Source: Sanderia malayensis (Eukaryota; Cnidaria; Scyphozoa; Semaeostomeae; Pelagiidae). Taken from it: 64,000 nt of DNA. The stretch lies in NCBI GenBank assembly GCA_013076295.1, contig RQOL01000772.1, positions 1,054,001 to 1,118,000 of the forward strand, in the 5' to 3' direction. The position numbers and the translations under genes are program-made. Positions 1-54,749 of this stretch are shown here, piece by piece. Position 1 is the stretch's first letter. Every line of letters starts with the position of its first letter. The notes beneath the pieces were generated by a model that searched no databases, was not told the DNA's origin, and saw only the letters and a program-made list of their open reading frames with translations.

Positions 1-1056
1 GATAAAGCGAAATCTTCACCAGGCAAAAATCCGAAAACTGGAATAAACAAGCATTTTGGAGCGTCAGAGCACTTTTCATGTCAACAAGACTATAGATACC
101 TGCGTTGTACTTGCAATCCTGTTTGCAGTCCAATTAGGTAGCTACTTCAATTAATCCTAGTCCCAACAAAAAACCTGCATTTCGCGAAAATCTCCGCTAA
201 CATTGAAGCTTATCGAAATTAGCTTAATTAACTAAGGGCACGTGTTTTTCAGTAAGCCCATGCGGATATGGTCAATCCCATTGCAAAAGCTGATAAATTC
301 AATCTAAATATTTGTCAGATTTCGCGTACTTGCTGTTCTGAATGCGCGGTAAATCTGTGATAACGCAGGTATCTTGTGCAAACAAAACGAGAAATGAGGA
401 CACCAGGCAGCCAGGCAGACTTCCAGACGACTGGAATGGTAACCATAAGAAAATACGATGCAAGAAAGCATATATAGCTGATTAAATAAAGCAAGGCATA
501 GCTAGATACGGCAGAATTCAGATGGTATAAGCTCTGAAACAATCCTTACGCACAACTATTTCATAAGAAGCTGGTTTATAAGAAACTAAAACTAACATGA
601 CCAACAATTTAAGAAACTTTTAGCAACAGACCAAGATAATTGAGAAATTGTAAAATTTCCATTCTTGGCATGATCCTTGTGAATATGCAATAAGGTAATC
701 TTAGGTCCCAAAAATAAGAACCCAATTAAGAAACCGTTATGACTAAAACACTAAAGCCTCCACGCCAGATTAAGAAGCTTGCTAAATGCTCATCTAAGCT
801 GACGAAATTTTACCAGAGACATTACGAGCCAAATGTGTATACTAGCTATAAGATTCTTTGGAAACGTTACGGATAGTACAAAGCATACCTTAGTGGCAAA
901 CAAATCATCATAACAAACGTCGCGATTTAGAAAGCGTTGCCTACCAATTCAAAAAAGCTGAGATGCGCTGGTTTTCAGGAGCACATAACGACGAAAAAAC
1001 GAATTCACATACCTTGTATTACCTGTGCACCAAGCTTGCCAGTCCAGAAGGTATCT
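1..1056. other. Flanking sequence, no gene recognised
   Basis: This is the downstream flank of the minus-strand RAD51D gene. Short open frames occur on both strands, but none continues across plausible splice sites or carries a family motif that I recognise. No clear AATAAA signal for RAD51D was identified here. Confidence 0.4.
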
Positions 1057-5349: not shown

Positions 5350-5905
5350 GACGAGCTGAGGAAAAAGGTGGTCAGCATGCGTAACGTCACATACGCCCCT
5401 GGCTACTGCGCAGAGCGTGTACTTACGCGTCCGCTATAAGCCTTTGGTTAGGCTTAGGTTAGGTTAGGTACGTCATGTTCAGCATGCGCATAAAAGAATC
5501 TACTGCGCAGGAGCGTTTGTGACGTTACGCTGGCCGCTGCATAAGCCTTTGGGTTAGGCTTAGGTTAGGGTTAGGGTTACGTCATGCGGAGGAAAAAGGT
5601 GGTCAGCATGCGCAGTGATAAAAGAATGGCTACTGCGCAGGAGCGTTTGTGACGTTACGCTGGCCGCTGCATAAGCCTTTGGGTTAGGCTTAGGGTTAGG
5701 GGTTAGGGTTACGTCATGCGGAGGAAAAAGGTGGTCAGCACGCGCAGTGATAAAAGTATGGCTACTGCGCAGGGGCGTATGTGACGTTACACTGGCCGCT
5801 GCATAGGCCTTTGGGTTAGGCTTAGGGTTAGGGGTTAGGGTTACGTCATGCGGAGGAAAAAGGTGGTCAGCATGCGCAATGGTGTAGGTATGGTTGCTGC
5901 GCAGG
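5350..5905. repeat. 132-bp minisatellite with telomere-like blocks
   Basis: The motif GAGGAAAAAGGTGGTCAGCA begins near 5356 (diverged) and then at 5589, 5721 and 5853, so the period is exactly 132 bp in the last copies. Each unit also contains CTACTGCGCAGGAGCG, a GTGACGTTAC half-CRE-like site, CTGGCCGCTGCATA and a block of GGGTTAGGCTTAGGG/GGTTAGGG. The array lies between the divergent RAD51D and 7TM genes. Confidence 0.85.
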
Positions 5906-5913
5906 AGTTTATA

Positions 5914-13352: not shown

Positions 13353-16300
13353 TTAAACATTGTCTTCAGCTACGAATTCAGCGACTGCTGCTTGAAGTGC
13401 GGCCGTGTACCCTTCTCTATGATATGCACTGAACATGGCTGGTGTGAAGAACTGATTTGCTGTCACGTGTTGTGGGAATTTACCACAGATTGGATCGGAG
13501 CACGACTGGCAACAAGACACGTGACAACACTCGCAGCAACCAACAGTCAATTGGTCAACCTCGTCTTCGGTAACCAATGGGGAGGTTCCCCAGCGATCTC
13601 TCTTCATCTCACCAAGATGGCAGCTCTTCAATTTCTCCCAAGCCAAATCCTCATCGATGTGAGCACAATCTTTGGGATGTCGGGGAGCAAGAAAAATTAT
13701 CTGGCCTTCGCCCACCCATTTCGTTTCGTAATTTGTCGATTTCGTCTTCTCATAATAATCCACTCTGAATCTATAAAACCTGGAATGCTTTCCATTGACT
13801 TTCTCGATGAATCTGTCACGAATATCTTCTTCGATGTCCCTTCCGTCCATACCTTTAAATGAGCAGTGAAGTTTTTCCCTGGCCATTTTCAGTGCCATTA
13901 ACAACGATTCAGCTACGTCATATTCAGTAGCATTGAAACCCCCGTCTGCTACAATGATCCTCCGCAGCCTACGCTTGAGAAGTGCCAGCATTCCAAGGTT
14001 TTCAACGTGTCCTCCGTCGCTGAGATAAAGGATGGCCGGGGGTACTTCACCAACGTTGTTTATTTGAAGAACTTCGCGCATGTATCGAACTTGGAAGATA
14101 TTTATGATGCACCACCTTGGGAGTGAATTGAATTGCAACATGTGATTATCACATGATGGAGAATACATGAGCTCAGATGGGAGTAATCAAATAAATAAAT
14201 AGTCAGCAAACAAACAAATAAATAAGCGAACATGGAAGTAAATAAAAAAGGTAAACAAGTAAGTTAAACAAATATACAGTAAGCAATAAAAACAAATTGG
14301 AAAGAGTAGGCAACTAAGAAAGAAAGAAGAAAAGAAAGAAAGGAGAAATTAAACCAAGTAAAAAGACAAGTAAAGAGAAAGATGATTAACTGTCTGCCAT
14401 ACCTTGTAAACCTTTCGAATTTGCTCTGTGCACTCTCACCAGTTGGAAGCAAGGAAAGGACGACAAACACGAACATGAAGGAAAGAAAAATTCCAAGAAA
14501 TACTTCATCTGCAATTCCAAAACGGCGGCGGTGAACTTCATAAATCGGTAATATGACAAGGGGAATTGTGACGACGAGTTGAATTATAAATGGAATCAAC
14601 TGAAAATATATGAAAAGACATCATTATCATCTACCATTTTGCATTATCATCTACCAATGTACAACTGCGTATGTAATGCTTGAATAACTTACTAGACTTC
14701 TGCAGTACCCTTTGAAATAGCGTTTGTCTGATATCCACGATTTTCCCATTGTTAGTCCCAGCAGGTTTTGCACACTTAGTAGAGACTGATTTGAGTAATG
14801 GCCCATGTGCTTGGAGACAACCGCCGCCGAGGTGGCCATAGCATCGGAAAGTTCAACGTCGTAAGGGCCGATGAAATTTTCAGTGAAATCATTGACTTCA
14901 TCATCATCAATTCGTTCAATGAGATGCGGAGTCAGCGTCAGGATTGTGAAAGATTCTTTATCAGCCATTCTCGTCGATTTATACTTCCAGTTATCAACGA
15001 GAACATTGCAAATGTAGGTCGGCTTTATTTCGGATAAATCACCGAGCGAAAGGGCATGTTTCGTGTCGTCGATTTCAACTGACAAAGGTTGTGTGCTACC
15101 GTCTATTTCTTCGTATAATGATTTCGATCTCTCCATCTTATGTGCTGGCCTGCTCAGTGGCAGAAAATCAGATATTGTTATGCCTTCGCAGCCTGTTACC
15201 CCCGCACTTTGACGTGTGTAGAAGGCCTTCTGTAGTTTAGACCTGAGCACAAAAAGCAATATATTGATAAGCAAAAGATATGACATACAATAATGTAGTG
15301 ATGGACTTAATTCGGTAAAAAGTCTTATTCCCCCCTCAAAGAGACACTTACCTCCAAAACGCGTGGATGGAGTTCTGCTGTATGAGCCACAGAATGGGGG
15401 TGATCAGAAATATGGCAACAGAGCTCCAGAAACAATCAAGAAACAGTTTCTTTTTGTATTGCACGCCCCAAAGGGGATTCTTAAACAATCTCCACTTGAT
15501 TACGAATGCGTAGAAATAGATGAGCAGGCACCATGCGCTAATTTCCCTAAGCGGGGGAATCCCCATCCACAGTAAAAAGCCAAAACAGAGAAGCAAGGCA
15601 TCTATCCATGTCGGCCTTGAAGATGCGAACATCTCTATGGCCCATGGCACAAAGGTAAAAGACAGAAGGATCAGGGCGAAGATCGCAAAGATGCGAAATA
15701 AATCCTTTATTCTGGACCCGGTTAATTTGTAACAGCCATAAAAGAAGATCATAATTAGGCCAAGGGAGCCAAAGAGAATGGGGGTAGCCTGGTCGCCTTT
15801 CATCCAAAACGGGAAACAATTGCTGTCGGGGTGGATCTTCCCAGGGAATTTCTTCCTCGTTTCGTTCGAATTTACGAACACTGTCTCGTTGAAACCGGCG
15901 TCCCAACGGCAAATAAAACTGTTGCGAAGAATATCACCGAATACCGAATCGATCACATACGTCACTGGAAACGCTATTGGTACCCAGAGTAGCACCGGAA
16001 TAACGATGCCAATGCATATGATCATCATTATTATGGAAAAAACATCAAAAATCCCGCGTATCGGGTTGTTCCACGAGCACAGAGTATTGGCGTTACGGCG
16101 CATTTGATTGAAGAATTGTTCGTGCCATTTCGGGTGGTCCTTTCCGCCATGGCGGTATTTCCAATCCAAATACGCCGAACCGGTATATCCGCCACCGGAC
16201 ACGGTGCTTATGAAATCCACCGGTACGCATCTGTGCAAAAGGCGTCTCAATACGCCGGACGAAAAGGCTGCGGATCGAATTCCACCGCCGGAAAATGCGA

Positions 16301-16373
16301 CGCCAACGCTGGATTCGATTTTCTTCATCTCGTCATCTGCGCCAGTGTTGATTGACAATCCCGGAGAAGCCAT
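13353..16373 (-). CDS. Bacterial-type patatin-like phospholipase, copy A
   Basis: Predicted 843-aa membrane-embedded lipid acyl hydrolase. Coding exons (minus): 15352-16373, 14693-15242, 14403-14599, 13353-14115, phases 2/0/2, all GT-AG. Residues 29-33 form the oxyanion glycine loop GGGIR after VAFS; the presumed nucleophile is Ser59 in STVSGGGYTGS; the presumed acid is Asp623 in YLSDGGHVENLG, followed by LLKRRLRRIIVADGG. Between them lie about five to six hydrophobic segments (roughly residues 105-340), then HAFWRSKLQKAFYTR, and a further hydrophobic stretch at about 525-570. HAF-R--L-KAF, SDAMATSAAVVSKHMG, the SDGGH-ENLG block and the C-terminal GKFPQHVTANQFF...FSAYHREGY all match, from memory, bacterial patatin-like phospholipases, which read HRFYRDRLSRAF, SGAAVSPNMG, SDGGHFENLG and FP-T-NQFF. 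A cysteine cluster GCCECCHVSCCQSC near the end is extra. First of three tandem copies; substrate unknown. Confidence 0.88.
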
Positions 16374-16864
16374 TATGTTCTGCTTTGAGGTCTATTAAAC
16401 AAATTAACATGCAAAATGAGATTCATTTAATCTTTTGTGTACTGACAGCCCATTCACTCGGTTGATTTTCGTTTGTTATCGTGACGAGTTTGTTGTTGAC
16501 CACAATAAAACAAAGTGCTTGATTACATCCGTTTGTTTACAATGAAAAAGTGCGGGTGTGGTGCATCCGCATCAGCAGGCCTAGCTGCCAAGATCATTAT
16601 TATTTTATGAATTCACAAAGGTATTTGGTGGTAGAAAGCCAAGAAATACTTGATTAATTCAGGAGTTCATCCGATGCATATTTTCCATGTCTCAGATTTC
16701 GGCTTTGGTGATTTGATTGATATGCCAGTTAGAGTTAGGCACTTTGATGAAGCAAGCTACCTGGTATTTATCAGTTGGTATTCTTGAAAAGTTTCTCATT
16801 CATAATGAGTTAGCTTCGGCATTTGCATGTGCGAAAAATATAAATACATGTACCATCTACTTAC

Positions 16865-16960
16865 AAAATTCAATTCCCAAAATGATGAGTAATCTTTAAT
16901 GTATCTCACTGCATTTGATCTTGCCTTGCCAGTCTTCGCAAATCTTAAATTTTGTCCGTC
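16865..16960 (-). other. Candidate 5' untranslated exon of copy A
   Basis: On the minus strand a segment ending ...GGGAATTGAATTTT is followed by the donor GTAAGTAGATGG. The matching acceptor (TAG, 16392-16394) lies just upstream of the copy A start codon. The same arrangement and related sequence (TCAAAT-CA-TGA-A-ACATTAAAG) occur upstream of copy B. The exon's outer boundary is only estimated. Confidence 0.55.
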
Positions 16961-17658
16961 GGTCAGGAATCTCACACTACTTCCTCCAGTCTTCTCTCTT
17001 CTTTGTCTGGTGGGGTGGGCGTGTGTGTACAAAAGCAATAAGTCAACCGACCGTGAGGGGAGAGGGAGATAAAATGCCTGCAAGATACGAAGCCAACAAC
17101 TTGAAGCCCGGCAATTAACTTTCCAATGCTGCAAATTATTGACGTCAAACATCAAGACATTGAAGCCATGTAGTGGTGGTCAATGGGTTTGGAAAGACAA
17201 AAAATGGCTGGGTTGCGCCTTGCCTTTATCCAGAAACAACAGAAAAAATAAGCTCGCCATTGTTTCGCGCAAAGAGCTGATGTTTTTGAGAAGTGCAAAC
17301 GCATGGATATCATCATTGTGAAATGATTTGAATGCAAAAAAGACTTATTTTCAATAAATCAACTCAGATCTTCTTGTAACTATACGGTTGGGAAGATTAG
17401 CTGTTTTGTACCATCATGGAAATGTAATAAAACTACTATGTGAGAATCAGCGTTCAATCGAGGTAGAGAGTAACCCTGGCAACGGCATGCTATTGTCTTT
17501 TGGTACTCACATTCCACCGATGTGCCTTATATATTTACGTAGCAATTAGGAAATGTCTTGAAAATATATTAATATAATAATTATATAATTATAATATATA
17601 TAATAATAATATAACTAGATAAAATTAAAAAAGAAATAACTAGTCATGTTGTATTCTG
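16961..17658. other. Spacer between copies A and B
   Basis: No gene recognised. Presumed promoter of copy A at the left side. AT-rich stretch with TATA/TAATAA runs at about 17563-17612. The segment near 17540-17570 resembles the matching position downstream of copy C (AGCAATTAGGAA-TGTCTT), so this 3' flank belongs to the duplicated unit. Confidence 0.5.
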
Positions 17659-20600
17659 TTAAACATTGTCTTCAGCTACGAATTCGGCGACAGCTGCTTG
17701 AAATGCGGCCATGTACCCTTCCCTATGATATGCACTGAACATGGCTGGTGTGAAGAACTGATTTGCTGTCACGTGTTGTGGGAATTTGCCACAGATTGGA
17801 TCAGAGCACGACTGGCAACAAGACACGTGACAACACTCGCAGCAACCAACGGTCAATTGGTCAACCTCGTCTTCAGTAACCAATGGAGAGGTTCCCCAGC
17901 GATCTCTTTTCATCTCACCAAGATGGCAGCCCTTCAACTTCCCCCAAGCCAAATCCTCATCGATGTGTACACAATCTTTGGGATGTCGAGGAACAAGAAG
18001 GATTATCTGGCCTTCGCCCACCCATTTCGTTTCGTAATTTGTCGATTTCGTCTTCTCGTAATAATCCACTCTGAATCTATAAAACCTGGAATACTTTCCA
18101 TTGACTTTCTCGATGAATCTGTCACGAATATCTTCTTCGATGTCCCTTCCGTCCATACCTTTAAATGAGCAGTGAAGTTTTTCCCTGGCCATTTTCAGTG
18201 CAATTAACAACGATTCAGCTACGTCATATTCAGTGGCCATGAAGCCCCCGTCTGCCACAATGATCCTCCGCAGTCTGCGCTTGAGAAGTGCCAGCAATCC
18301 AAGGTTTTCAACGTGTCCTCCGTCGCTGAGGTAAAGGACCGCCGGGGGTACGTCACCAATGTTGTTTATTCGAAGAACCTCACGCATGTATCGGACTTGG
18401 AAGATATTTATGATGCACCACCTTGGGAGTGAATTGAATTGCAATATGTGAATTTGCATGGTGAAGAAGTTAAAACAATTTGCATAATACAATCACGTTC
18501 AGATCGAAAGACGACGGAAGAAAAGAAACTTATAAAAAAGTAGAAATCAAGTAAATAACGGACTGTTAAGGAGAACAGCGACTAGAGGAAATTTGGAGAC
18601 TTGTCAATGTCACACCTTGTGAACCTTTCGAATTTGCTCTGAGCATTCTCACCAGTTGGAAGCAAGGAAAGACTTGCGATGATAAAAAGAAAGATAAGAA
18701 AGATTCCAAGAAATACTTCATCTGCGATTCCAAAATGGCGGCTGTTTACTTCATAAAACGGTAAGATGAACAGAGGAATTGCGACGACAAGTTGAATTAT
18801 AACCGGAATCAACTGCAAATATATGAAAATATATCATTATCGTTGTTTACAATGTTGCGACCCATGTATAACTGCGTATGCATTTATGTTTAAATTACTT
18901 ACTAGAGTTTTCCAGTACCCTTTGAAATAGTGTTTGTCTGATATCCAGGACTTTCCCATTGTCAGTCCCAACAGGTTTTGCACACTTAGTAGAGACTGAT
19001 TTGCGTAATGGCCCATGTGTTTGGAGACGGCAGCCGCTGAGGTGGCCATAGCATCGGAAAGTTCAATGTCGTAAGGGCCGATGGATTTCTCGGTGAAGTC
19101 GCTCACATCATCGTCGTCGATTCGTTCAATGAGATGCGGAGTCAGCGTCAGGATTGTGAAAGATTCCTTTTTTTTATTGTCCGTCGATTTGTACTTCCAG
19201 TTATCAACAAGAACATTGCAAATGTAGGTCGGTTTTATGTTGGATAAATCACCGAGCGAAAGGGCGTGTTTCGTATCGTCGATTTCAACTGACGAAGGTT
19301 GCTTGCTACCGTTGACTTTTTCGTATGAAGATGATTTCGATCTCTCCATCCTATTTGGTGGCCTGCTCAGTGGCAGAAAATCAGATATTGTTATGCCTCC
19401 GCAGCCCGTTACACCTGCACTTTGACGTGTGTAGAAGGCCTTCTGCAGTTTTAATCTATAAACAGAAAGAAAGCGATAAATTTACAAGCATGTATATGAT
19501 GCATAACAATACAACCATGGAATGAATTCAGTAAAAGCTCTGTTCAGCCCCTTTTCAAACACCTCCATTAATTACCAAGTGTCTCTCTCTTCGAAACTTT
19601 TGGCGGCTTGCTCATGCTGAACTTAAATTAGCTAGGCTTAATAAAGAACAGTACAATAACAATCTTACACTTACCTCCAAAATGCGTGAATGGTATTCTG
19701 CTGTATGAGCCAGAGAAAGGGGGAAATCTGCAACATGGCAACAGAGCCAAGAAAACTATAAAGAAACAGTTTCTTTTCGTAGTGCACGCCCAGAGTGGGA
19801 TTCTTAAACAATTTCCACTTGATTACGAACGCGTAGAAATAGATCAGTAGACACCATGTTGCAGTTTTTCTAAGCGGGGGAATCCCCATCCACAACAGAA
19901 CACCAAGACAGAGGAGTACAGTATCCAACCACATGGGTTTGGATGATGCGAACATCTCTATGGACCATGGCACAAGGGTGAAACACAACAGGATCATGGC
20001 CAAAATCGCAAGGATGCGAAATAAATGCTTGATTCTGGACCTGATTAATTTATATAGCCCATACGATAAGATTATGATTAGGCCAAGGGAGCCAAAAAGA
20101 ATGGCTGCTGACTGGTTACTCTTCATCCAATACGTGTAGCAATTTTGGCCGCCATGAATCTGTTCATCGAAGTTCTCTCTCATCACGTTTGCAAATTCCG
20201 TCTCATTGAAACCGGCGTCCCAACGGCAAAGAAGACTATCGCGGAGAATATCACCGAACACAGAATCTATCACATACGCCACAGGAAACGCAATTGGTAT
20301 CCATATTAATAACGGAAGAGCGACGCAAATGCATATGACCATCATTACTATAAGAAACACATCAAAAATCCCGCGTATTGGGTTGTTCCATGAGCACAGA
20401 TAATTGGCGTTACGGCGCATTTGGTCGAAGAATTCTTCGTGCCATTTCGGGTCGTCCTTTCCGCCATGGCGGTATTTCCAATCCAAATACCCCGAACCGG
20501 TGAATCCGCCACCGGATACGGTGCTTATGAAATCCACCGGTACGCATCTGTGCAAAAGGCGTCTCAATACGCCGGACGAAAAGGCTGCGGATCGAATTCC

Positions 20601-20690
20601 ACCGCCGGAAAATGCGACGCCAACGCTGGATTCGATTTTCTTCATCTCGTCATCTGCACTAATGTTGATTGAATATTCAGAAGGGGCCAT
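17659..20690 (-). CDS. Bacterial-type patatin-like phospholipase, copy B
   Basis: Predicted 842 aa, same architecture as copy A. Exons (minus): 19675-20690, 18903-19455, 18616-18812, 17659-18421; exon 3 (197 nt) and exon 4 (763 nt) have exactly the lengths of the other copies. The start is the ATG of MAPSEYSINISADDEMKK, which aligns with the copy A start; an upstream in-frame ATG lies before the predicted acceptor at 20716-20718 and is not used. Active-site motifs are intact: SGGGIRS, STVSGGGFTGS and YLSDGGHVENLG. Exon 4 is nearly identical to copy A over its whole length, whereas the first luminal loop (NVMRENFDEQIHGGQ region) and the membrane segments have diverged. The lost sequence similarity is therefore uneven along the gene. 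Confidence 0.88.
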
Positions 20691-20715
20691 TATGCAACAC
20701 ACTATGCTGTGAACT

Positions 20716-22927
20716 CTAGCAAACAAATTACGTTAAATTAAAACTATATAAATTAAGAATTCTGGGTGCTAGGAAACTATACAAAATTATGACCACAGTT
20801 GGTCCTCTCTGAAACTGATTTAATTTTGAAAATATACAAAATCCAGAGTTCATATTTTTTCATTGAAAATTTTGGCTTGGTCTCTTGAAGCTTGTAAAAC
20901 TTAAATGACTGTTTTGTTCACATGATGCTCATGTTAGGGCTTTGTTCATCGTTTTCTTCACGTGATACTTTTGAGAAAACGATAAAATAAATCCTACGAA
21001 ACTCTTACGAAACTAGAGTTCTGGAATTGTTTGATGCCTTAAGAAACTGGATCACTCACCGTCGAGGTTGGCTTTTTGTAATAAAAATAGATTTTTATAT
21101 GTTGGCTCATCATTTTTATGTATTTACAGGGGATTTCAATTCATTATTTCGGTGATTTTTTTTCACCAGGAAATGATTGATTCATTGATTGCTTCCGTTA
21201 CTTTTTTTGATGCGGACTATGTGCCTTCCGAGAATTTCAACTTCAGCATCAGCAGGCCAGGCCATCTATAGGCTATTTATTCACTCTATCCAATTCATGT
21301 ATTTGAAAATATTTGAAAATAAAAAGGCTAAAGTGCTTAATAGATTCAGGAGTTGATTTAAGACTAATTTTCCAATGGCTAAATTTTAAAAAAGCCAAAA
21401 GGCAAGGCAAAAGCCATGCGTTTGGTTTGCTTTCTCGTGAGATTCCAGTAGAAAACTTTCGACTGTGTTGGGATAATTATCATGACACCATAGAGTTTTT
21501 AGAGCCCAAAATGTGCACTTAAAAGTAAGAACTGAGGGATTTCAGGGACTACAATTTAACCAATACACATCAAAATATGAAAACCTTGGAACAAAAGGCC
21601 TTGATATATATAAAAGCGTGTTTACCATTTGTATATAAAAATATAAAAATGTGTCATCTACTTACCAATTTCGATTCCAAAATTGTTTAGCAAACTTTAA
21701 TGTGTTTCAATGGATTTGATCCTGCCAGTTTTCGTGTAATTCATAAACTGTTCAATGGTGATGTGATGGATGCGTGTTTTAAACAATGCCAAGCTTATAC
21801 TCACTCACACGCAGGGAAATTCCCAAACAGTGGTTGAAATTTGAGCTGTGTAGAGAAAAGATTCGGGGAAATACTCAGCTCCGGGTAGGTCTTTGTTTTC
21901 AGAAGTCGCCATTTTTTGCTTCGGTTTTGGTTTCGAAACTGCAGCAAGGTATCAATTTCAAGATTGTATGAAGAAATAAGCTATTTTTATCTTATTGCAT
22001 GACTTTTTCGATGGCTTTGCGGTACTTGTTGAGGGAAATGCGAAAGTGAAAGAAAATTTAAGGGAAATTGAAGGAAACAGCTGTGGGGAAAGGCAACGAA
22101 AAGTGTATTTGCTGAAAAGATAACAAACGCTGTGTGGGAGCAACTATCCGCTGTGGAGGAGAGGGTAATTCCCATCACTCCAATTTGTATCATGCTTGCA
22201 CGAGGTTCGGGGTTTTTTACATAGACATCCTTTCTAAAGAAATAACAGGCTGAAATGTTCCCAAAAAATAAGAACAACACATGAAACAAAGGAGGCTGAT
22301 ATTCAGTAAAGCTTAAGAAATGAAAAATTAATTATGAAATATAATTAACTATGGAAAATAATTTTTTTCCAATTGATACAAGAAATCTTCAAACACAGGC
22401 TTTTTTATAAGAATCTTGGATCAACACTAAAAGGTTCTTCTCGCGAAATCTCAAAATCGTTACAAAGATCTCGTGGAAATTACAAAATTACAATATTTTC
22501 CAAACAAAAATTTATTTTAAAATTCCAAACAAATTTCTTCATACTTGCTGAGATGAGACCATGCCATACACAAACTTAACCCAACGAAATTGTTCAAGAA
22601 TGAAAACTGTACAGTTCGCTACAAGTTGCAAGGATATTTAAGCCAGGTATCAAAATTATTAATGTGTTGCAAATAGCTACAATATCAGGTTCCAAGAGTT
22701 TTATCAATGGACAGCATCTATAAAACCTAATGTTAAATATAGTTTGCTCTAGAGGAGTTCCACTGATTTAAAGACAAAATTAATTTTGAAGCTGGAGCTG
22801 GTTGGTTATGCTATTATCTAGAGGTATGTTCCTATATATCTAAGTAGCAATTAGGAAGTGTCTTAAAAATATAATGAAATAAGCACGATAGAAATAAAAA
22901 AGAAATAGTTAGTCATGTTGTATTCTG
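20716..22927. other. Spacer between copies B and C
   Basis: Contains the candidate 5' exon of copy B (21666-21760) and blocks related to the 16.5-17.1 kb spacer (CATCAGCAGGCC, GATTCAGGAGTT, CATCTACTTAC). No protein-coding gene recognised; open frames here are short and unrelated to known families. Confidence 0.5.
21666..21760 (-). other. Candidate 5' untranslated exon of copy B
   Basis: Minus-strand segment ending TTTTGGAATCGAAATTG with the donor GTAAGTAGATGA, homologous to the candidate exon upstream of copy A; acceptor TAG at 20716-20718 before the copy B ATG. The intron would be about 950 nt. Outer boundary is estimated. Confidence 0.55.
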
Positions 22928-25900
22928 TTAAACATTGTCTTCAGCTACGAATTCGGCGACTGCTGCTTGAAGTGCGGCCGTGTACCCTTCCCTATGATAT
23001 GCACTGAACATGGCTGGTGTGAAGAACTGATTTGCTGTCACGTGTTGTGGGAATTTACCACAGATTGGATCGGAGCAGCATTGATAAAAGGACATATGAC
23101 AACACTCGCAGCAACCAACGGTCAATTGGTCAACCTCGTTTTCGGTAACCAATGGAGAGGTTCCCCAGCGATCTCTCTTCATCTCACCAAGATGGCAGCT
23201 CTTCAATTTCTCCCAAGCCAAATCCTCATCAATGTGTACACAATCTTTGGGATGTCGGGGAACAAGAAGGATTATCTGGCCTTCGCCCACCCATTTCGTT
23301 TCGTAATTTGTCGATTTCGTCTTCTCGTAATAATCCACTCTGAATCTATAAAACCTGGAATACTTTCCATTGACTTTCTCGATGAATCTGTCACGAATAT
23401 CTTCTTCGATGTCCCTTCCGTCCATACCTTTAAATGAGCAGTGAAGTTTTTCCCTGGCCATTTTCAGTGCAATTAACAACGACTCAGCTACGTCATATTC
23501 AGTGGCCATGAAGCCCCCGTCTGCCACAATGATCCTCCGCAGTCTGCGCTTGAGAAGTGCCAGCATTCCAAGGTTCTCAATGTGTCCTCCGTCGCTGAGG
23601 TAAAGGACCGCCGGGGGTACGTCACCAATGTTGTTTATTCGAAGAACCTCACGCATGTATCGGACTTGGAAGATATTTATGATGCACCACCTTGGGAGTG
23701 AATTGAATTATTGGTTGTTTACATGGTGGAGAAGTTGAATTGAATTTCATACTACAACCAGACTCGGATGAAAGTAAAAGTAAACACAAAAATATACAAC
23801 ATAAGTAAACAAGCAGAGCGTCATCAAACATCACAACAAACAACAAACATCAGCCTATATGCCTTGACGAGCCAAATGAAAACATAATTAAATAAAGAAG
23901 AGCAAAGAAGAAAAGAGACAAATAAAGTAAGTAAATGTGGAAGTTATCAACAAATAAATAAAGAAGTAGACAGATGAGATGATCAAACAAGTAAAAATAA
24001 GTAAATAAAAATGAAGAAAGCAAACATTTAAGAGGCTATAAAGAAAGGGACAAGCAAGTGGGTAAACAATTGCAAGCAGAAAATGATTGCAAGGGAAAAT
24101 TAAAGAAATAACGGAGAATAAAGGAAAAAGGTTGAATTGTGAAACTTGTAATACCTTGTGAATCTTTCCAATTTGCTCGTAGCACTTTTACCAGTTGGAA
24201 ACAGGGAGATAATTGTAGTGATAAACATGAAGAAGAGAAAGATACCAACAAATATCTCATCCGTTATTCCAATATTCTGCTGCAGAATTTCAATCAACGG
24301 CAGGACCAATAAAGGCATTGCTATGATGATATGAATTGTGATTGGCAGAAACTGAAAAAAAACATCCATTTTTATCAGGTGGGCCAACAAAAAATCACCC
24401 CCTAAACAAAATATTTCTACACAAGATGTCTTTTGAGTTGAATATTGTACGGAGGAATTTCCTAAAAGTTTTTCTTTAAGATGCATTTTCCACAAATATT
24501 TATGTTAGGGGGTTACTTTTTTTGGCCTCTATTATAAAGTTGTTTCAGGTGGATAATTATTTGCAGCATGTCTTCATGTCCTTAATCACGATGAAGGCGT
24601 TTTGAGTGTATTTGTCGATATATTCCATAGTGACTTACCAATCCACTGCAACGCCCTTCAAGATAGCGTTTGTCTGATATCCACGATTTTCCCATGGTCA
24701 GTCCCAGCAGGTTTTGCAGACTCAGGACCGTGTCGTTGGAAAAGGTGCCCATGTGCTTGGAGACGACAGCTGCCGAAGTGGCCATCGCATCGGAAAGTTC
24801 AACGTCTTGAGGGCCAATGAATTTCTCGGTGAAGTCGCTCACATCATCGTCGTCGATTCGTTCAATGATGTGTGGTGAGAGGGTGAGAATTGTGTAAGAG
24901 GTATTTTTCTTAATTGTTGTAGCTTTGTACTTCCAGTTATCAACGAGAACATTGCAAATATAGGTCGGTTTTGTGTTGGCCAAATCGCCGAGTGTTATGA
25001 CGTCTTTCATGCAGTCCAATAGCGTGCGGTCGCTGATGCTTCCGTACGATGATTTCCGTTTCTCGGTCTTTGATGGCCTGCTCAGCGGCATAAAATCAGA
25101 TAATGTTATGCCTCCGCAGCCCATTAGACCGGCACTCTTACGTGTGTAGAAAGCCATCTGCAGCCTTGATCTACGTATGAAAAGTCAATCATTTATAAAC
25201 AGAATACATTTCTTTGTTAATATAGGGTACACCGACAATGAACCTAATTCATCAACAAGTTCATTCCCACTCTAGTGTTCCTATTCCCTATTCCCTATTC
25301 CGTATTATTATACTTCCAATTTCCATTGGCTCTGATTTGCCTTATGCATGCTTCAAGTGTAAGCTATAGTATGATCCGAAATCTGCTCAGAGCAGATTCA
25401 CTGTGTATTCAGCATAGTTTGACATTACAATTTGTTATTGCTACGTTGCAAACACGACACTCCAGAATTAGATGTCACTATGACCACCGTTAAGTTGATG
25501 TTAATATTTAGTGGTTGTGTTCTTGTTTTCTTTTACTTCTATTATAGATATTATCTTTTGTTCTTTGTTTTTGTGCATTGCATGTTGGACACAGCGAAGC
25601 TTTCAAGTTGAACTGCATTGGGTTGTTACTACAATAAAACAGAGCGGACAAGCAATAACACAATGCGATACGTACCTGTAAAACGCGTGAATGGTGTTCT
25701 GTTGTATGAGCCAGAGAAAGGGAGTCATCATAAACAAGGCAACAGAGACCCAGAAGGCGTAAAGAAACAAGTGTTTGTTGTAACGCATGTTTACGATGGG
25801 ATTCTGAAACACTCGCCAGTTTATGACGAAGGCGTAGAAGTAGAGCAACAGACACCAAGAAGCCGTGCTTCTGAGAGGGGGGATTCCCATCCATAGTATA

Positions 25901-26715
25901 ATGCCAAGGCACAATAGTACAATCCTGAGCCACATCGGTATGGACGAAGAGAACATTTCAATGAACCATGGAAGGAACGTGAAGCACAACAACACCATTG
26001 CCATTATTGCGAGAATGCGAAAGAGCTCCTTGATTCTCGACTTGGCTATTTTGTAGCAGCCAAAGGAGAGTATTAGTGCTACGCCCAAAGCGCCGAAGAG
26101 AATTGCCGGTGAAACGTTGTTTTTCGTCGGATCCGGGTAGCAGCTGCGACCGTTGCGAAGATTCGAAGCTGTTGCCGCAAGCGTTGCGTTTGCCGTGCGC
26201 GTTGCGTTTGCGAGCAGCGTTGCGTTAAAGCCCGCCTCCCAACTGCATACAAACCCCGCGCGGATAAACCGGCCGAATATAGCATCCACCAAGTAGGCCA
26301 TTGGAAACGCCATTGGTATCCATATTAACACCGGAATAACAAGGCCAATGAATATGACCATCATTATTATGAAAAGCACCTCAAAAATCCCGCGTATCGG
26401 GTTTTTCCACGTGCACAGAGTATTGGCGTTACGGCGCATTTGATCGAAGAATTCTTCGTGCCATTTCGGGTCGTCCTTTCCGCCATGGCGGTATTTCCAG
26501 TCCAAGTAGGCCGAACCAGTGAATCCGCCACCGGACACGGTGCTTATGAAATCCACCGGTACGCATTTGTGCAAAAGGCGTCTCAATACGCCGGACGAAA
26601 AGGCTGCGGATCGAATTCCACCGCCGGAAAATGCGACGCCAACGCTGGATTCGATTTTCTGGACGTTTTCATTACGCTCCTCTGTGTTTATGCTTGTCGG
26701 TTGTGAAGAGATCAT
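22928..26715 (-). CDS. Bacterial-type patatin-like phospholipase, copy C
   Basis: Predicted 843 aa. Exons (minus): 25676-26715, 24639-25170, 24155-24351, 22928-23690. Start chosen at the ATG of MISSQPTS, just downstream of an acceptor (CAG, 26738-26740). Catalytic motifs SGGGIRS, STVSGGGFTGS and YLSDGGHIENLG are intact. It is the most diverged copy: the N-terminal tail differs, the linker before exon 3 is shorter, the third exon (LPITIHIIIAMPLLVLPLIE) has many changes, and the first luminal loop gains a run with N-A-T sequons. Yet the nucleotides encoding the glycine loop and nucleophile, and all of exon 4, stay close to copies A and B. In the Cys cluster CHVSCCQSC is changed to CHMSFYQCC. 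Membrane topology and lipid hydrolase activity are inferred. Confidence 0.87.
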
Positions 26716-39400: not shown

Positions 39401-42400
39401 GGTATCTATCGGGTATTTTAATAGCCGTGTTATAGTTGTGCGAAGGTTGTGATGAGGCATACGCCAAAGAATCGGGGAATTAATGGCTTGAGAGACCAGT
39501 TTTGCTCATTTAAGCTGCATTGAGCTAATCAGTGTAGATGACACTGCCCATGCAGCATTGGTGATGATGTCTCGAGTTGTTTTCCACAGGGACAGCTCAT
39601 TGCCGATATTTAAAGACAGTAAGGACTCATCTCGAATCTCTTGTATTGCCAATTGATGCCGAAACTCCAGTCGATGCCGAGCAAGGTCTTACAGAGGAAG
39701 TTTTCCAGCGATTATACTCAAATGGAGAGGTAATGGCATCGTTTTATCACTACTGCTGCTACTAAAGCTACTGCTGCCAAAACAACTGCTGCCAAAGCTA
39801 CTGCTTATAATTTTACTTATAATAAGATTCTTATTTCTTCGAATAGCTTGTTTAAGCCCTAATGCACCTCTTTTCACAAGAAGTCCATCATTCTCACATG
39901 CACTATTTTTTGTTTCAGGTTTCTGACATAATGCAGTACGTTTATCACGGTGGTGTTCAGCCATCAATTCGTCGCAATGTTAGTATTTCACTTCCATATG
40001 GTATATGATATCATTGTGAATTTGATGTGACAAGTTTTTTATACGTGTGAGATATGTCTGTTTTGCAGGTTTGGCCTTATCTGTTAGGACAGTATTTATT
40101 CGAGTACACTTTGAAAGACTGTGAGAACTTGGACTCGCGACTCGCCAATGACTACGCAAAGGCGTTGAAGGAATGCAAAGCTGTCGAGAAACATCTTCGC
40201 GTCAGAGAAAAGGATCTGCTAAACATTGAAGGCTTCGCTACTGTGAGTTTATTCAGCGGTGAATGTACGAATGATGTTGTCGATGGAGGAGAAGAGAGTG
40301 ACGAGCGCCGAAAATCAATCGTTCGTCTTCGGTCGCCGATTTCGGTCGATGAATCGTCGGCGAGCGACACGCTATCGGATTCGGTTCCTGCCGAACAAAT
40401 GGCCGAGGTCGAAGAGGTGAACGTTGAAAATGCAGTTGTCGGTGGTAATGGTGGAGAGAAAAATACGACCGAGGAAAAGTCGGAATGGCACCGGCGAACT
40501 TTGATTTCCAGTCTGATCGAGACGAAAGCGAACTTGCGAGAAATTGTCGATACAGCGAGTCAGCGAGGCGCCGAAGCTTGGAAGAATCTATTGAAGAAGT
40601 CGGGCCATCGGAGACGTAGGGCCGAGAGTGAACCGACTTCAACCGCGTCTGTTGATACCGACTCTGCTATGAGTTTTGATTTGGAGATCGCTTGCAACAA
40701 GTGTGGAAAGAAGATCATTGAGAGTAGAGAACGTGTCTTGGATGGGGGGTTGAGTGACCAGAGCATGGATCGGCTTGAGTGTCTCGTCTGCTCGAACGCG
40801 AGAGAACTAACCGACCGCGACGATAGTCCCGATAAATGGACGTTACGATACCCGAAGGTATTTCGGAGGATGTCGAAAGCCGAAACGAATCCCGAAACTG
40901 GGGAGAGTTTCTTGGGCGACGGTGACGGTGGTTATGACGCAGCTGATGGGCCGAAATTTTTCGTGATTAATGGAGAAAATGTGGATAATAGCAAGGCGGC
41001 AGCCACAACAATTGAAAGTACCTACGACGTGAGTGAATATACTTTATTTTTCTTCATGTATCGTCAGGTGTTTTTTTTAAATAGAAAACAGAATATTTTT
41101 AATAGAATATTTTTCTCTATTTCTGTAATTTTTTCGCCCAGCATTGCCCCTTTGCTGCAGGACACTTCGCTTATCCATTAAAAGTTCCTTGATCGAAATA
41201 AACTGTCTACAGTTAGCTCGAAATTTTGTTTTTCAATGACCACTCCTTTCTCTCTCATTTTTAATTTACCCTTTTCTGCTTCTCCTAGCTGCTGTCTCAG
41301 TGTTTTTCTTTGATATTTAGGAAGAACTCTTGAAAGAATTCGCCCTGAACATCCATCGCATTGACAAAGACGTTTTGAGATGCGACAGAAATCATCCTTA
41401 CTTCGTTCAAGAGAACCTGGAGAAATTACGCAACGTTATTATGAGGTAATTGTTATGAGGAAGAGCTTATTTCCTTAGTAACCTCTTTTTCATTTGTTAT
41501 ACAGTGGATTCGATTCAGATAGTTGTATAGCTGGAAGCAAAATCGAATAAAAATAAGGTTAGAAACAAACAAGCTATATCTTCATACGTTTCTCGTTTGT
41601 TTAAAATTGTCGGACGGAGAGTTTGTTACATCTTTATACTGATACCAATGCTAAATGATATCGTTAGTCAAAGACAAGGGTAGCTATACCTGAGTTTGCT
41701 CAAGATATAGATGGCTATACCTGAGTTTGTCCAAGATACAGATGGCTATACCTGAGTTTGTCCAAGAAAAAGATAGCTATATCTGAGTTTGTCCAAGATA
41801 CAGATGGCCATTCCTGAGTTTGTCCAAGATACAGGTGGCTATTCCTGAGTTTGTCCAAGATACAGATGGCTATACCTGAGTTTGCCCAAGACCCAGATGG
41901 CTATGCCTGAGTTTGTCCAAGATACAGATGGCTATACCTGAGTTTGTCCAAGAAAGAGATAGCTATATCTGAGTTTGTCCAAGATACAGATGGCCATTCC
42001 TGAGTTTGTCCAAGATAGAGGTGGCTATTCCTGAGTTTGTCCAAGATACAGATGGCTATACCTGAGTTTGCCCAAGACCCAGATGGCTATGCCTGAGTTT
42101 GTCCAAGATACAGATGGCTATACCTGAGTTTGTCCAAGAAAGAGATAGCTATATCTGAGTTTGTCCAAGATACAGATGGCCATTCCTGAGTTTGTCCAAG
42201 ATACAGGTGGCTATTCCTGAGTTTGCCCAAGATACAGATGGCTATACCTGAGTGTGTCCAAAGTACTCCAAGAAAGAGATGGCTAGACGCGAGTTTGACT
42301 TTGAGGCCATTATGGCTACAAAAGATTAGATTGTAGTAAGGAATTCTCAAGACCCTTAAGAGTTTGAGCTTGTTAAAGATTACTAAAGCGATTCTTTTTT

Positions 42401-44814: not shown

Positions 44815-45234
44815 TAATATTTGGTCCATAAACTTCCATTTTTTATTCCATGTTTTATGCATGTAAGAAAACAATGAATGCTTGTTTGCCAAGCAAGCTG
44901 GAGCTTTGATCTAATTTCTACTTTATATCACATTGTATTAAATTCCACAAAGTTATTAAAATTCTCAAAAATCAATCTAATTTGTGCCTCCAATAACTTG
45001 CTATTTATTTGTGGTAATAATGATATGAGGATATCAAAACTGTCATGTTGGTGGAATCTTTATTGACTTTCTGTCAAATGTATCCCGGCGACATTTTGTT
45101 GTGGTCATATTGGGGTTTTTGTCTTGCATAACAAAGAAACTAAAATTAAAAGCATTTTAAAAATCTTTATTTGAGTCTGGAAAATTTATAAAGAACTTTT
45201 TAGGACGCTATGTATGTAAGTTTATTTGCTTATC

Positions 45235-46296
45235 ATGTTTAAGAAATGGAAGGAAAAGGATATCGAAAAGGAGAAGAAGGAGAAGAAATATGCAAGCAAA
45301 CCTCGAGGTGATAAGGAAAAGAAATCCTTCGGCGATGTCCTTGCTGGGTATGAAAACATATCTTCTCCTTCGCCAAAGGAGAAAGAGAAAGGAGTTTTTG
45401 GATTTGGTGGTCGGAAAACTCAAAGTGAAAGGCGGAAAAGGGACGAAGAAGCTTCGTCTGCAGCAAGAAGAAATGTTTACAAGCAAAGAATATCGGTTGA
45501 CAGTGAGAGTAGAGATATCCCAGCTGGAGTAAATGGAAGAACGGGCCTAAATGGAGGTGGAGAAGTCCGTGGGCCTGCTGGCAAAAATGATGCAGATCAT
45601 GAGCACGACAGAAGAGCTTCGCAACGGAAAAGCAGTTTCACTGTTGATGTAAAATCTTCGAGTGTCAACAGAAACGGGAGAGATAATCCAGCAGCAGATA
45701 GAAAAGAAAGAATCAAAGCAGCTTCCGGATCTGAGGTGACTGTCAACATTGGCCTAGGCTCAGAAATAATGGCTGGTCTTGGAAACGGAACAAGAGAATT
45801 TCTTGTTAAGAGGGCATCTTCTGATAAAAAGACAACAATGGATAATGATAATAAAGTTCAGGGTGTTAATTTGTATTTGCCAGAATTACAAACTGTTGGC
45901 TTTGAAAATGGAAGAATTTTGAAATTAAAGCGACGGCCTATAGGGGATTTTGGTTTTGTTCTGAGGAGATCAACCCTCTCAGGCGATAATACGAAAACTA
46001 TCCATCTTGCTGAACCTCTCGCAGAAGAACACAACACAGGCTTGATGCCCGGCGATAGACTTGTAGAAGTCAATGGATTAAATGTTGAAAATTCAACGAG
46101 GGATCAAATTATCAACAGCATTGCTGCATCTGGTGATGAGGTCTCTATAAAGGTTGTCCCCGTTCCCGAGTTAGCAGAACTTTCTTCAAGAACAACCGAA
46201 GTTGAGCTTTCTCAAAGCAATAATAATAAAGTTTCACCAACAAGCAAAGGCTTTTCGTTAGCTCGAAGTGGAAGCATGCGAAGTAAGAGATCAAAG
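45235..46296 (+). other. MYO18A: MYO18 exon 1: KE-rich N-terminus and PDZ domain
   Basis: Single 1062-nt exon, residues 1-354. The first 25 residues are mostly Lys/Glu. Residues about 30-215 are polar and probably disordered. The PDZ carries [20 protein letters not shown] with GDFGF at the carboxylate-binding position, then [40 protein letters not shown] and [17 protein letters not shown], closely matching the MYO18A PDZ and the ensuing PELSELS motif. Confidence 0.92.
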
Positions 46297-49200
46297 GTAA
46301 GGTCTCAGTGTTTTCTGTTATTATTTCTTGTAGTTAATCATCCATATTTCTCATAAGTCCTGACATAATATTCTCTTTAGCTTTACCATAAGTCGTATTA
46401 TACATTATGTATACAATAATTTTATATACTTATATACATCAATTATGGCATTAATAATAATAAAGCCTGGGCATAATTGGTTTAGTAATTTTGCAGTAAC
46501 ACCCAGAGAATTCACAAGCATTAAATTTAAGGTTAGAAGATATAAGTCAAACTCCTTCCTGGAATAAAAGATCGGCCCTCCCCTTTCAGCCATCATGGTT
46601 TATTCATGCGACCCTTTTGCGGTTAGGGTGCTAAACATTTTCTGGCTTCGAATAGCATGTGCATAGAGCCCCTCATTTGAATTTCTAGATGATGCAGGCC
46701 TCCTTTGTGCTAGATGCCCCTTGCCCCTTGGCCACTATTTGTAACTCTTATTTTCATCAACCATTTCGACAATACACTTTTGATTGCTGCACTGGAGTAT
46801 AACCATTTTAGTTATTCGGTGAGAAACATTGGTGTATATACTCAGAGCTAAAATAACGTAGAAGAGTGAAATAGATAGAAAATAAATAAATTGACAAAAA
46901 TGTAAAAAATCTCCCCCAATGTAAAAAACCTATTTTAATGATGTTATATTATTTTCCAATAACTCTTCACTAATATTAATCTTCAAATTTTTTCTTTCAC
47001 TTTGATAAAGTTAAATTAAATTAGTCTGAACCTATGAATTATGCTAAATTGATTCAGTACACTTCATTAATATCGGATAGAAGGTCAAAGAAATAAGATA
47101 CTATTTTGGTCTGTATTTGGTAAGCCACAAGACTGCGCTGGTTGCCATAAGTCCCAAACTGTGAACAGCTATTGAATACAGAAAAACACTCTAGCCGAAT
47201 TTTGCAAATTGCGTTTGGATATTTTTACGAGGCTCTCGTGTAAAATTTGCTGAAACTGTTCTGAATAATTCTCTTCCAGGCGAAATCTGATGCCGACATA
47301 GCATCAGAAAAGGCATGGCTTGATGCCGAAAAGGTTTGGCTGATCCACGCTGAAGGATTTTCAGCTGGCAGATTGTTGAAGCGAAAGAATGACAGTGCAA
47401 ACAACCTTGAAGATTCAAAGTGTCTCGTCAAGCTTGATCACGGAGGAGAAGTGATTGAAGTTGAGGAGGAGCAAGTTGCAAAGGTTCGTCGTTGTTGTTG
47501 TTGTTGCTGTTATTGGTTTTGTATTCGCAACTCCATTGTTATTTAAGTATTATCCAGTACAATACATTTTCTTGTTTTCTCCGGAATATTAGCTGGTTAA
47601 AGAGAGGTGGAAGCAAGGAGGCATTTTAGTAGAATTTTTGACATGGCAAACCTGGATTGTATTCCTTTATTACGAACTGGCGCTAGGTCCTTGGAACTCC
47701 TTGAAACTGTTCGCAGTGCAATTTATTTTTGGTTTCACGAGTTTTTGATATCGCAAAATATTTCATTGGTTTCCTTCGATTCTCCTCTTATTGCACGCGC
47801 TCTAATATCAGGAAGCTTTGGCTAATTGATTGATGGGGGCGAATGTGATTTTTTAACAAGTCACTCGCGATCTCTATTCAGATGCTACTGATCATAGGCG
47901 CAAGAGAAAGAGGGACTCCCCCCGTCCAGTTCCACACAAGGGAATGTCAGTCCACACTTAAATTCACAATAATTCAGTCAAAGTTGGATTTGTAAAGCTC
48001 AGTTTTAATATAAACTAATACACAGTATTCACTGCTGTTTACTCTGGGAGAAAGATGCACCCCCCCCCCTCAAATATGAAGCGCTTCTACACCATTGGTA
48101 CTGATTTAAGGTGGAGTCTTGGGATAGCTTTGCGATTAAGATCGGTGTGATTACTAACTTGTTTACCGAATAAAGAGTTATTTACAACCACACGTTGAAT
48201 CGTATCTCTTCCTTTCTTCTATTATAAGGCATGCTGTGGTATCGTAGCTTCTATGGATCTATTATTGTTTATTATCAGGTTGATAAAGTCACGAAAACAC
48301 AAAGCATTTAATATTGTAGTTGCATAAGATTTGATACGATTCCTGCTGCACGTTAATTGAACCTCTCTGTTCAGACGTCTCAAATATGACGAGCTTCCCT
48401 CCATGATAAACCAACCATCCGATTTGTTTAACTACATCAAAACACAGTTTCGATTTAATTAACTAGTGATACAACCAGCTAGTTCTGGCTGCCTTTAAAG
48501 CTCTTTGTATTGAAACTGCACTGTCCCATCTACTTCTCTGTTATTGCGTTGCAGGCGAATCCTCCGCAGTTCGACCACGCAGAGGACCTCACGTGGTTAC
48601 GCCATCTGAACGAATCGGCCTGTCTTCACACATTGAGACAGAGATTCGGCAGCAATCTTATTCACACCTATGGAGGACCGAATCTCATGGTGATCAATCC
48701 AAGAGAACAGCTCAGCATATACACTGACAAGGTATGTGCATGCGTAACACCCTTACAATGAGCTTATATGCATTGAATTTGAATTGGAAGTGTTAGAATA
48801 ACCGGGGGATGAGTGAACTAGCATGTTATACATGTGTTCAACCCCCGTACTAAGTGGAGGTCTGTATTGATAGTGTTGTGGCAAATGCTTATGAAACCGG
48901 GTGTCTAATTGCTGCAATATGTAGTATCACCCTGGTTTTGTCATGATTTTGGTTGAGTTTGACCGGCAAATGCTTAAGCAACTCGGTGCCCATAGTTTTA
49001 TGTATTACCCTTGTCAATAATAGCTGTGTATTTTTGAATAGCTTACGTTTGCGAAGTAAGTTGTGCGGGCAATCGTCGTTCGAATAAAGATTTCACTATA
49101 CTACCATTAGCATAGTACAAGGTTATCAAGCAATATAGCAATAAGCGATAGAGCCCCGTAGACTTTGTAGACATCAGGTACAAAAGGGCCCTAAATCTTA

Positions 49201-54716: not shown

Positions 54717-54749
<33 letters not shown>

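Follow-up and report, generated by a model that had tools for sequence, protein, structure and literature searches.

Three tandem genes for putative membrane-tethered serine acyl hydrolases of an apparently old family in the jellyfish Sanderia malayensis

The window analysed here is a 64,000-nucleotide stretch of the Sanderia malayensis genome (contig RQOL01000772.1), within which the interval 13353-26715 fits exactly a block running from the stop codon of one gene (g1) through the start of another (g3). The three genes of this block (g1, g2 and g3) are adjacent, lie on the minus strand and have four exons apiece, with exon borders placed by means of splice sites and common phases. We propose that they probably encode membrane-tethered serine acyl hydrolases that act through a Ser-Asp dyad on phospholipids of the cytosolic leaflet and belong to an old family triplicated in this jellyfish. 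The features of the array are given below, where A5 denotes an alignment of 44 rows.

13353..16373, minus strand: g1, 843 aa, splice-joined model; exons 16373-15352, 15242-14693, 14599-14403 and 14115-13353
17659..20690, minus strand: g2, 842 aa, splice-joined model; exons 20690-19675, 19455-18903, 18812-18616 and 18421-17659
22928..26715, minus strand: g3, 843 aa, splice-joined model; exons 26715-25676, 25170-24639, 24351-24155 and 23690-22928
26608..26631 (g3), 16272-16295 (g1), 20589-20612 (g2), minus strand: FSGGGIRS, presumed oxyanion-hole loop, from the motif and the PF01734 match
26533..26535 (g3, Ser61), 16197-16199 (g1, Ser59), 20514-20516 (g2, Ser59), minus strand: presumed nucleophile Ser in STVSGGG, invariant in A5
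25676..26403, minus strand: g3 exon-1 share of the first membrane block, from residue 105; predicted helices 106-152, 202-223, 228-256, 261-277, 279-303 and 314-354
24155..24351 (g3), 14403-14599 (g1), 18616-18812 (g2), minus strand: exon 3, encoding a hydrophobic hairpin (in the g3 model, helix 520-547 and helix 554-573)
23567..23599 (g3), 13992-14024 (g1), 18298-18330 (g2), minus strand: LSDGGHIENLG (g3) with presumed catalytic Asp623, invariant in A5
23096..23113 (g3, residues 783-788), 13521-13538 (g1), 17827-17844 (g2), minus strand: CCECCH cluster
23021..23053 (g3), 13446-13478 (g1), 17752-17784 (g2), minus strand: C-terminal FPQHVTANQFF (FPHxxTxxQFF in bacterial members)

All nine introns are of the GT...AG type and 90-505 bp long, and they occupy homologous positions in the three genes, with phases 2, 0 and 2 as derived from exon lengths. 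The reading frames are open up to the terminal stop without internal stops. EukProt holds the three proteins as consecutive gene13869, gene13870 and gene13871: P0001 is the complete g3 protein, and P0002 (827 aa) and P0003 (828 aa) lie letter-for-letter inside g2 and g1, respectively, each of them beginning with a Met that lies 15 residues into the model. The splice-joined models and the EukProt proteins thus agree with the first-pass annotation, which had described three adjacent minus-strand genes with identical exon phases. Protein identity is 83% between g1 and g2, 72% between g1 and g3 and 74% between g2 and g3. When the 184 Mb genome (184,004,477 bases, 918 contigs) was searched with the g3 protein, the 12 matches corresponded to the four exons of the three array genes and no further copy was found outside the array among the best candidates scored, in line with the local expansion noted earlier. 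Assembly contamination was rejected, as the genes are spliced and located on a 4,676,287-base contig that also bears, further downstream, exons for a PDZ domain and a myosin head.

The motifs FSGGGIRS, STVSGGG, LSDGGH(V/I)ENLG, CCECCH and FPQHVTANQFF are present in all three proteins. The SGGGIR, STVSGGG and SDGGH-ENLG motifs are therefore intact as first reported, and the numbering Ser59 and Asp623 given with them is correct for g1. In A5 the presumed nucleophile Ser, Asp623 and Gly33 are kept in 44/44 rows and Arg35 in 43/44; the HxxYRxRL-type motif reads HAFYRSRL in g3. Two hallmarks of the patatin superfamily were recognized, the GGGxR oxyanion loop (SGGGIR in g1-g3) and the catalytic DG(G/A) (in SDGGH), and PF01734 matched g3 residues 28-71 with 35.2 bits at a cut-off of 27.7. 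The array structure together with this motif set is far beyond chance. No match to PF01735 or to a C2 domain was obtained for the g3 protein up to E 1, nor to any PDB sequence up to E 1, and NCBIfam holds no family matching the jellyfish protein; PF01735 gave sub-threshold matches in 8 of 35 bacterial members. Against PDB, profile A1 found a weak cPLA2 match (E 0.21) and profile A6 two (E 0.0029 and 0.02), and the same searches returned chance membrane-protein matches such as a TRP channel (E 0.08) and a chemokine receptor (E 0.00079). Because the cPLA2 matches are mixed with chance matches of similar E, sequence leaves patatin versus cPLA2 kinship undecided.

In the hydropathy profile, Ser and Asp are separated by seven hydrophobic segments. 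The nearest solved folds to the predicted structure are lipases, the predicted domain has the cPLA2 catalytic-domain fold, and the nearest solved fold is the same for the bacterial members as for the jellyfish protein; in the model, the Ser and Asp ends are predicted to fold into one hydrolase domain at the inner side of the membrane. Concerning sidedness, the loop 153-200 between membrane helices 1 and 2 carries 50 N-glycosylation sequons per 1506 residues, found in 32 of the 44 A5 rows, compared with 10/3790, 35/7225 and 34/11892 residues in three soluble parts, so that its density is about 10 times that of the catalytic parts. Furthermore, this loop keeps Cys157 in 42/44 and Cys192 in 43/44 rows. 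With the sequon- and cysteine-bearing loop on the far side, the six and then two membrane helices of the model would put the middle segment and both catalytic ends on the cytosolic side. The opposite arrangement, an ectoenzyme with its catalytic domain outside the cell or in an organelle lumen, might be argued from a topology that is based on sequons and cysteines only and from the cysteine-rich C-terminal catalytic part (11.4 Cys per row); it is improbable given the roughly tenfold excess of sequons in the loop over the catalytic parts.

With regard to catalysis, substrate and sidedness, we infer that the proteins are most likely phospholipase A-type acyl hydrolases. The first ~100 residues would supply the oxyanion-hole loop and the nucleophile Ser and the last ~250 the catalytic Asp, and in sequence they are set apart by six membrane helices, then a middle segment in the cytosol, then the hairpin of two helices. 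Both ends would combine in three dimensions as a single cytosolic-side hydrolase domain held at the inner leaflet, where the Ser-Asp dyad would cleave acyl esters, while the far-side loop would in most members carry glycans and a disulfide bond. The oxyanion is presumably held by Arg35 and the GGG loop, as in cPLA2. A protein of the same fold might instead be mainly an acyltransferase or transacylase, or a lipid handler with the outer loop as sensor. A non-canonical TVSGG motif, a membrane bundle exceeding a simple anchor and a diverging loop (nonsynonymous divergence, dN, of ~0.5 versus g3 in alignment window 140-209) would fit such a role, but retention of Ser, Asp, GGG and, in 43/44 rows, Arg35, together with lipases as nearest solved folds, makes it unlikely.

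Divergence among the three copies is uneven along the genes. Synonymous divergence (dS) is low at the catalytic ends, with values of 0.07-0.14 for the first catalytic part and 0.10-0.17 for exon 4. It reaches 0.30-0.75 for exon 2, 0.48-1.00 for exon 3 and 0.61-1.18 for the first membrane block; the catalytic ends are 5 to 10 times below the first membrane block. As dS is low at the ends and high in the membrane block, the simplest reading of these sequences is that two separate tracts, corresponding to both catalytic ends, were homogenised by gene conversion. In the first membrane block dN is 0.17-0.32, less than dS, and positive selection is therefore not claimed. After local triplication, conversion would have kept the catalytic ends alike as the membrane and outer parts diverged, resulting in what appears to be a single catalytic domain combined with three differing membrane and outer parts. 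Such an arrangement would be in keeping with the same chemistry at different sites or under different control.

A word-based protein search (at most 7996 candidates) yielded 1032 proteins at E <= 0.001, of which the best 120 were listed. After the window proteins, the first of these matches are from Oculina, Montipora, Stylophora, Acropora, Dendronephthya, Exaiptasia, Porites, Nematostella, Pocillopora and Actinostola; a profile search (A3) added Desmophyllum. Also among the listed matches are Sycon, a sponge (E 2.2e-62), and, alongside mostly bacterial-type rows, Acytostelium, a dictyostelid (E 4.3e-13). No bilaterian or other medusozoan is named there, which does not by itself show absence. 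Two metagenome proteins, P0073 (808 aa) and P0074 (1312 aa), are of eukaryotic type. One Stylophora member (P0053) is annotated as a fusion with the retrotransposon Pol domains PF17919 and PF17917, perhaps a gene-model error. The bacterial family is widespread in GTDB genomes, with at least 592 pattern matches and at least 563 confirmed; the 80 bacterial loci kept from these, chosen by likeness to P0073, cover many phyla.

Two features set the eukaryotic-type proteins apart. Among 16 proteins scanned for hydropathy, at least two hydrophobic segments stand just before the Asp motif in 9/11 eukaryotic-type rows (three in P0069) and a single one in P0074 and Acytostelium, versus 0/5 bacterial rows with any such segment in the ~180-210 residues preceding Asp. 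In addition, the CCxCCH cluster is kept in A5 (Cys783 in 44 rows; Cys784, Cys787 and His788 in 41 each) and recurs outside it as CCVCCH in P0074 and ACECCH in Acytostelium; it was not found in P0073, in the bacterial-type rows listed or in any of 72 bacterial open reading frames (ORFs). The cluster may bind metal or be acylated. P0073, with the hairpin and without the cluster, may represent an early branch. The extra hairpin and CCxCCH would provide two simple diagnostic marks for finding further members.

For phylogenetic analysis, 6 of the 80 bacterial loci were not entered and 2 lacked the motif; alternate ones (36) of the 72 ORFs left were taken together with 9 P rows. Seven of 72 tree rows were dropped for lack of the anchor motif (Porites, ena3117, bac_P0179, L011, L041, L046 and L079), and the IQ-TREE tree comprised 467 columns and 65 rows, 25 labelled eukaryotic and 40 bacterial, its root not inferred; the bacterial labels on P rows and the eukaryotic labels on P0073, P0074 and ena3240 were assigned in this analysis. 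One branch (support 100/99) separates eukaryotic-labelled from bacterial-labelled rows, and the split persisted (Shimodaira-Hasegawa-like approximate likelihood ratio test, SH-aLRT, 99) in a second tree of 259 columns and 61 rows made without Acytostelium, P0074, P0128, L060 and the middle part. In both trees the jellyfish genes stand on the side separate from the bacterial rows. The three array genes group together with 100/100 support inside an anthozoan-rich clade that has 11 rows (95/93), and the branching order inside the eukaryotic side is P0073, P0074, Acytostelium, Sycon and Cnidaria.

The tree argues against recent acquisition of the genes by this jellyfish through transfer. Bacterial-type motifs and the fact that other medusozoans are unnamed among the matches listed could be read as a recent bacterial gift specific to the jellyfish or to cnidarians, but the nearest listed rows come from anthozoans, the better of them at 39-46% identity, with bacteria far behind, and three introns sit at homologous places; such an origin is highly improbable. 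More serious, if still doubtful, is an origin of the eukaryotic family from one or a few bacterial genes gained after eukaryotes had diversified, perhaps in independent events in an amoeba and in early animals. This would suit the very patchy distribution (named eukaryotes among the matches listed being anthozoans, this jellyfish, one sponge and one dictyostelid), the abundance of bacterial members and the few, long eukaryotic branches. However, the eukaryotic-labelled rows all lie on one side of the 100/99 branch, they have the hairpin and, except for P0073, a CCxCCH-type cluster in common, and the order P0073/P0074, Acytostelium, Sycon, Cnidaria fits vertical descent, though the fork uniting Acytostelium with animals has only 95/48. 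We favour vertical descent of one family, with members in Cnidaria and in no fewer than one sponge and one dictyostelid, whose sister would be a widespread family of bacteria. An early eukaryotic gene with many losses and an old single transfer are both compatible with the tree. The first-pass annotation had suggested either an ancient horizontal acquisition or a poorly known animal family; the poorly described family is borne out by the anthozoan and sponge kin, and ancient transfer and old gene are not told apart by the tree.

Several observations weigh against our interpretation as an old family of acyl hydrolases. The PF01734 match spans only profile positions 2-45 of 191 (44 positions), and TVSGG is not a strict GXSXG, the first Gly being replaced by Thr (mostly by Cys in relatives). 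The A5 profile found no PDB sequence up to E 10, and Foldseek returned nothing at E <= 0.001; among its patatin rows the best were those of PlpD (E 0.22), which covered 49 columns. The excess of the 50 sequons observed over shuffled loops (mean 16.9, maximum 30 in 500 shufflings) is not a probability, as the 44 A5 rows are related to one another, and the loops of the short-loop, octocoral-type rows P0058, P0061-P0063 and P0066 and of Sycon are sequon-free. Something besides conversion could partly explain the low dS. Acytostelium, P0074 and Sycon are on long branches (3.0, 2.6 and 1.6; P0128 has 2.15 and L060 1.6). Finally, a search with the Sycon C-terminus (785-981) returned only itself, not even cnidarian relatives; because these were missed too, it says nothing on absence in other animals.

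Other candidate contexts were considered for the family. A conserved operon partner was rejected: excluding the gene itself and overlapping clusters, no neighbour family occurred in more than 7 of the 80 loci, and the loci of the one present in 7 are all Bacteroidota (Saprospiraceae or Chitinophagales). An ORF that we labelled GMC oxidoreductase-like lies near the gene in 4/80 loci (L015, L060, L069 and L075), and P0176 is a single protein with a patatin domain as well as GMC oxidoreductase domains. A role as phage or virus cargo was rejected, with no match in 50,697 phage records and 1 of 29 viral-contig pattern matches confirmed. The confirmed match is on contig L089 (45,575 bases) of the IMG/VR viral collection, where the encoded relative aligns to query residues 25-650 at E 1e-7. 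A defence effector, of the cyclic-oligonucleotide-based anti-phage signalling (CBASS) kind or another, was rejected as well, PADLOC matching 0/8 family members up to E 0.1.

Elsewhere in the window, a PDZ domain and the start of a myosin motor belong to exons that we take to be perhaps of one myosin XVIII-like gene, and four tandem arrays were found.

45220-46356, plus strand: PDZ domain (PF00595, 26.8 bits)
49223-49657, plus strand: myosin motor start (PF00063, 62.9 bits)
5500-5907: tandem array, 132-bp unit, 3.1 copies
41683-42261: tandem array, 31/186-bp unit, 18.7/3.1 copies
54509-54964: tandem array, CTA-type triplets, 152 copies
60037-60220: tandem array, 21/63-bp unit, 8.8/2.8 copies

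Judged by titles and abstract openings, we found no paper describing the family or its anthozoan members. In databases the bacterial members are named 'patatin-like phospholipase family protein' or hypothetical and the anthozoan ones 'uncharacterized' or 'PNPLA domain-containing'. If our reading is right, animals outside the usual study groups keep a membrane-embedded lipase of cPLA2 fold in several copies and with a bacterial sister family, which raises the question whether cnidarians possess a membrane-bound source of free fatty acids and offers a concrete family for asking about the origin of cPLA2 and eicosanoid-type lipid signalling.

The large bacterial transmembrane patatin-like phospholipases (for example P0106, P0168 and P0075) resemble the jellyfish proteins in SGGGIR, VSGGG, the membrane block separating Ser from Asp and the HxxYRxRL-type, SDGGHxENLG and FPHxxTxxQFF motifs, but lack the hairpin before Asp (5/5 scanned) and CCxCCH (72/72 ORFs). 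The anthozoan 'PNPLA domain-containing' proteins (for example Nematostella LOC5516493 and Oculina LOC144664342) share the family at 29-46% identity, as paralogues on other branches. The CBASS effectors CapV and CapE, and PlpD, are small (248-344 residues in listed chains). Animal PNPLA/iPLA2-beta (6aun) and plant patatin (1oxw) score Z values below cPLA2 against the jellyfish model and lack its motif set. PNPLA-type frames also occur in the same genome, at C817 and C781, where they read GASAGA and GGTSMG. Group IV cPLA2 (PF01735; 1cjy, 5iz5) is soluble, without a membrane block, and has a C2 domain in most members; the jellyfish protein differs from it, matching neither PF01735 nor C2. The layout had first been called bacterial-type and unlike animal PNPLA or cPLA2 proteins: the bacterial motif set stands, and the unlikeness to cPLA2 does not extend to the fold of the catalytic domain. 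A bolder and, in our view, quite unlikely proposal is an unrecognised ancient transmembrane class of cPLA2, in which a receptor-like protein would combine a membrane bundle with a glycosylated loop outside and a lipase in the cytosol. Amoebae, sponges and cnidarians would have kept it and most other animals would have lost it, the bacterial members being the nearest prokaryotic kin of Group IV cPLA2; if this were true, soluble animal cPLA2 could stem from a membrane-embedded ancestor.
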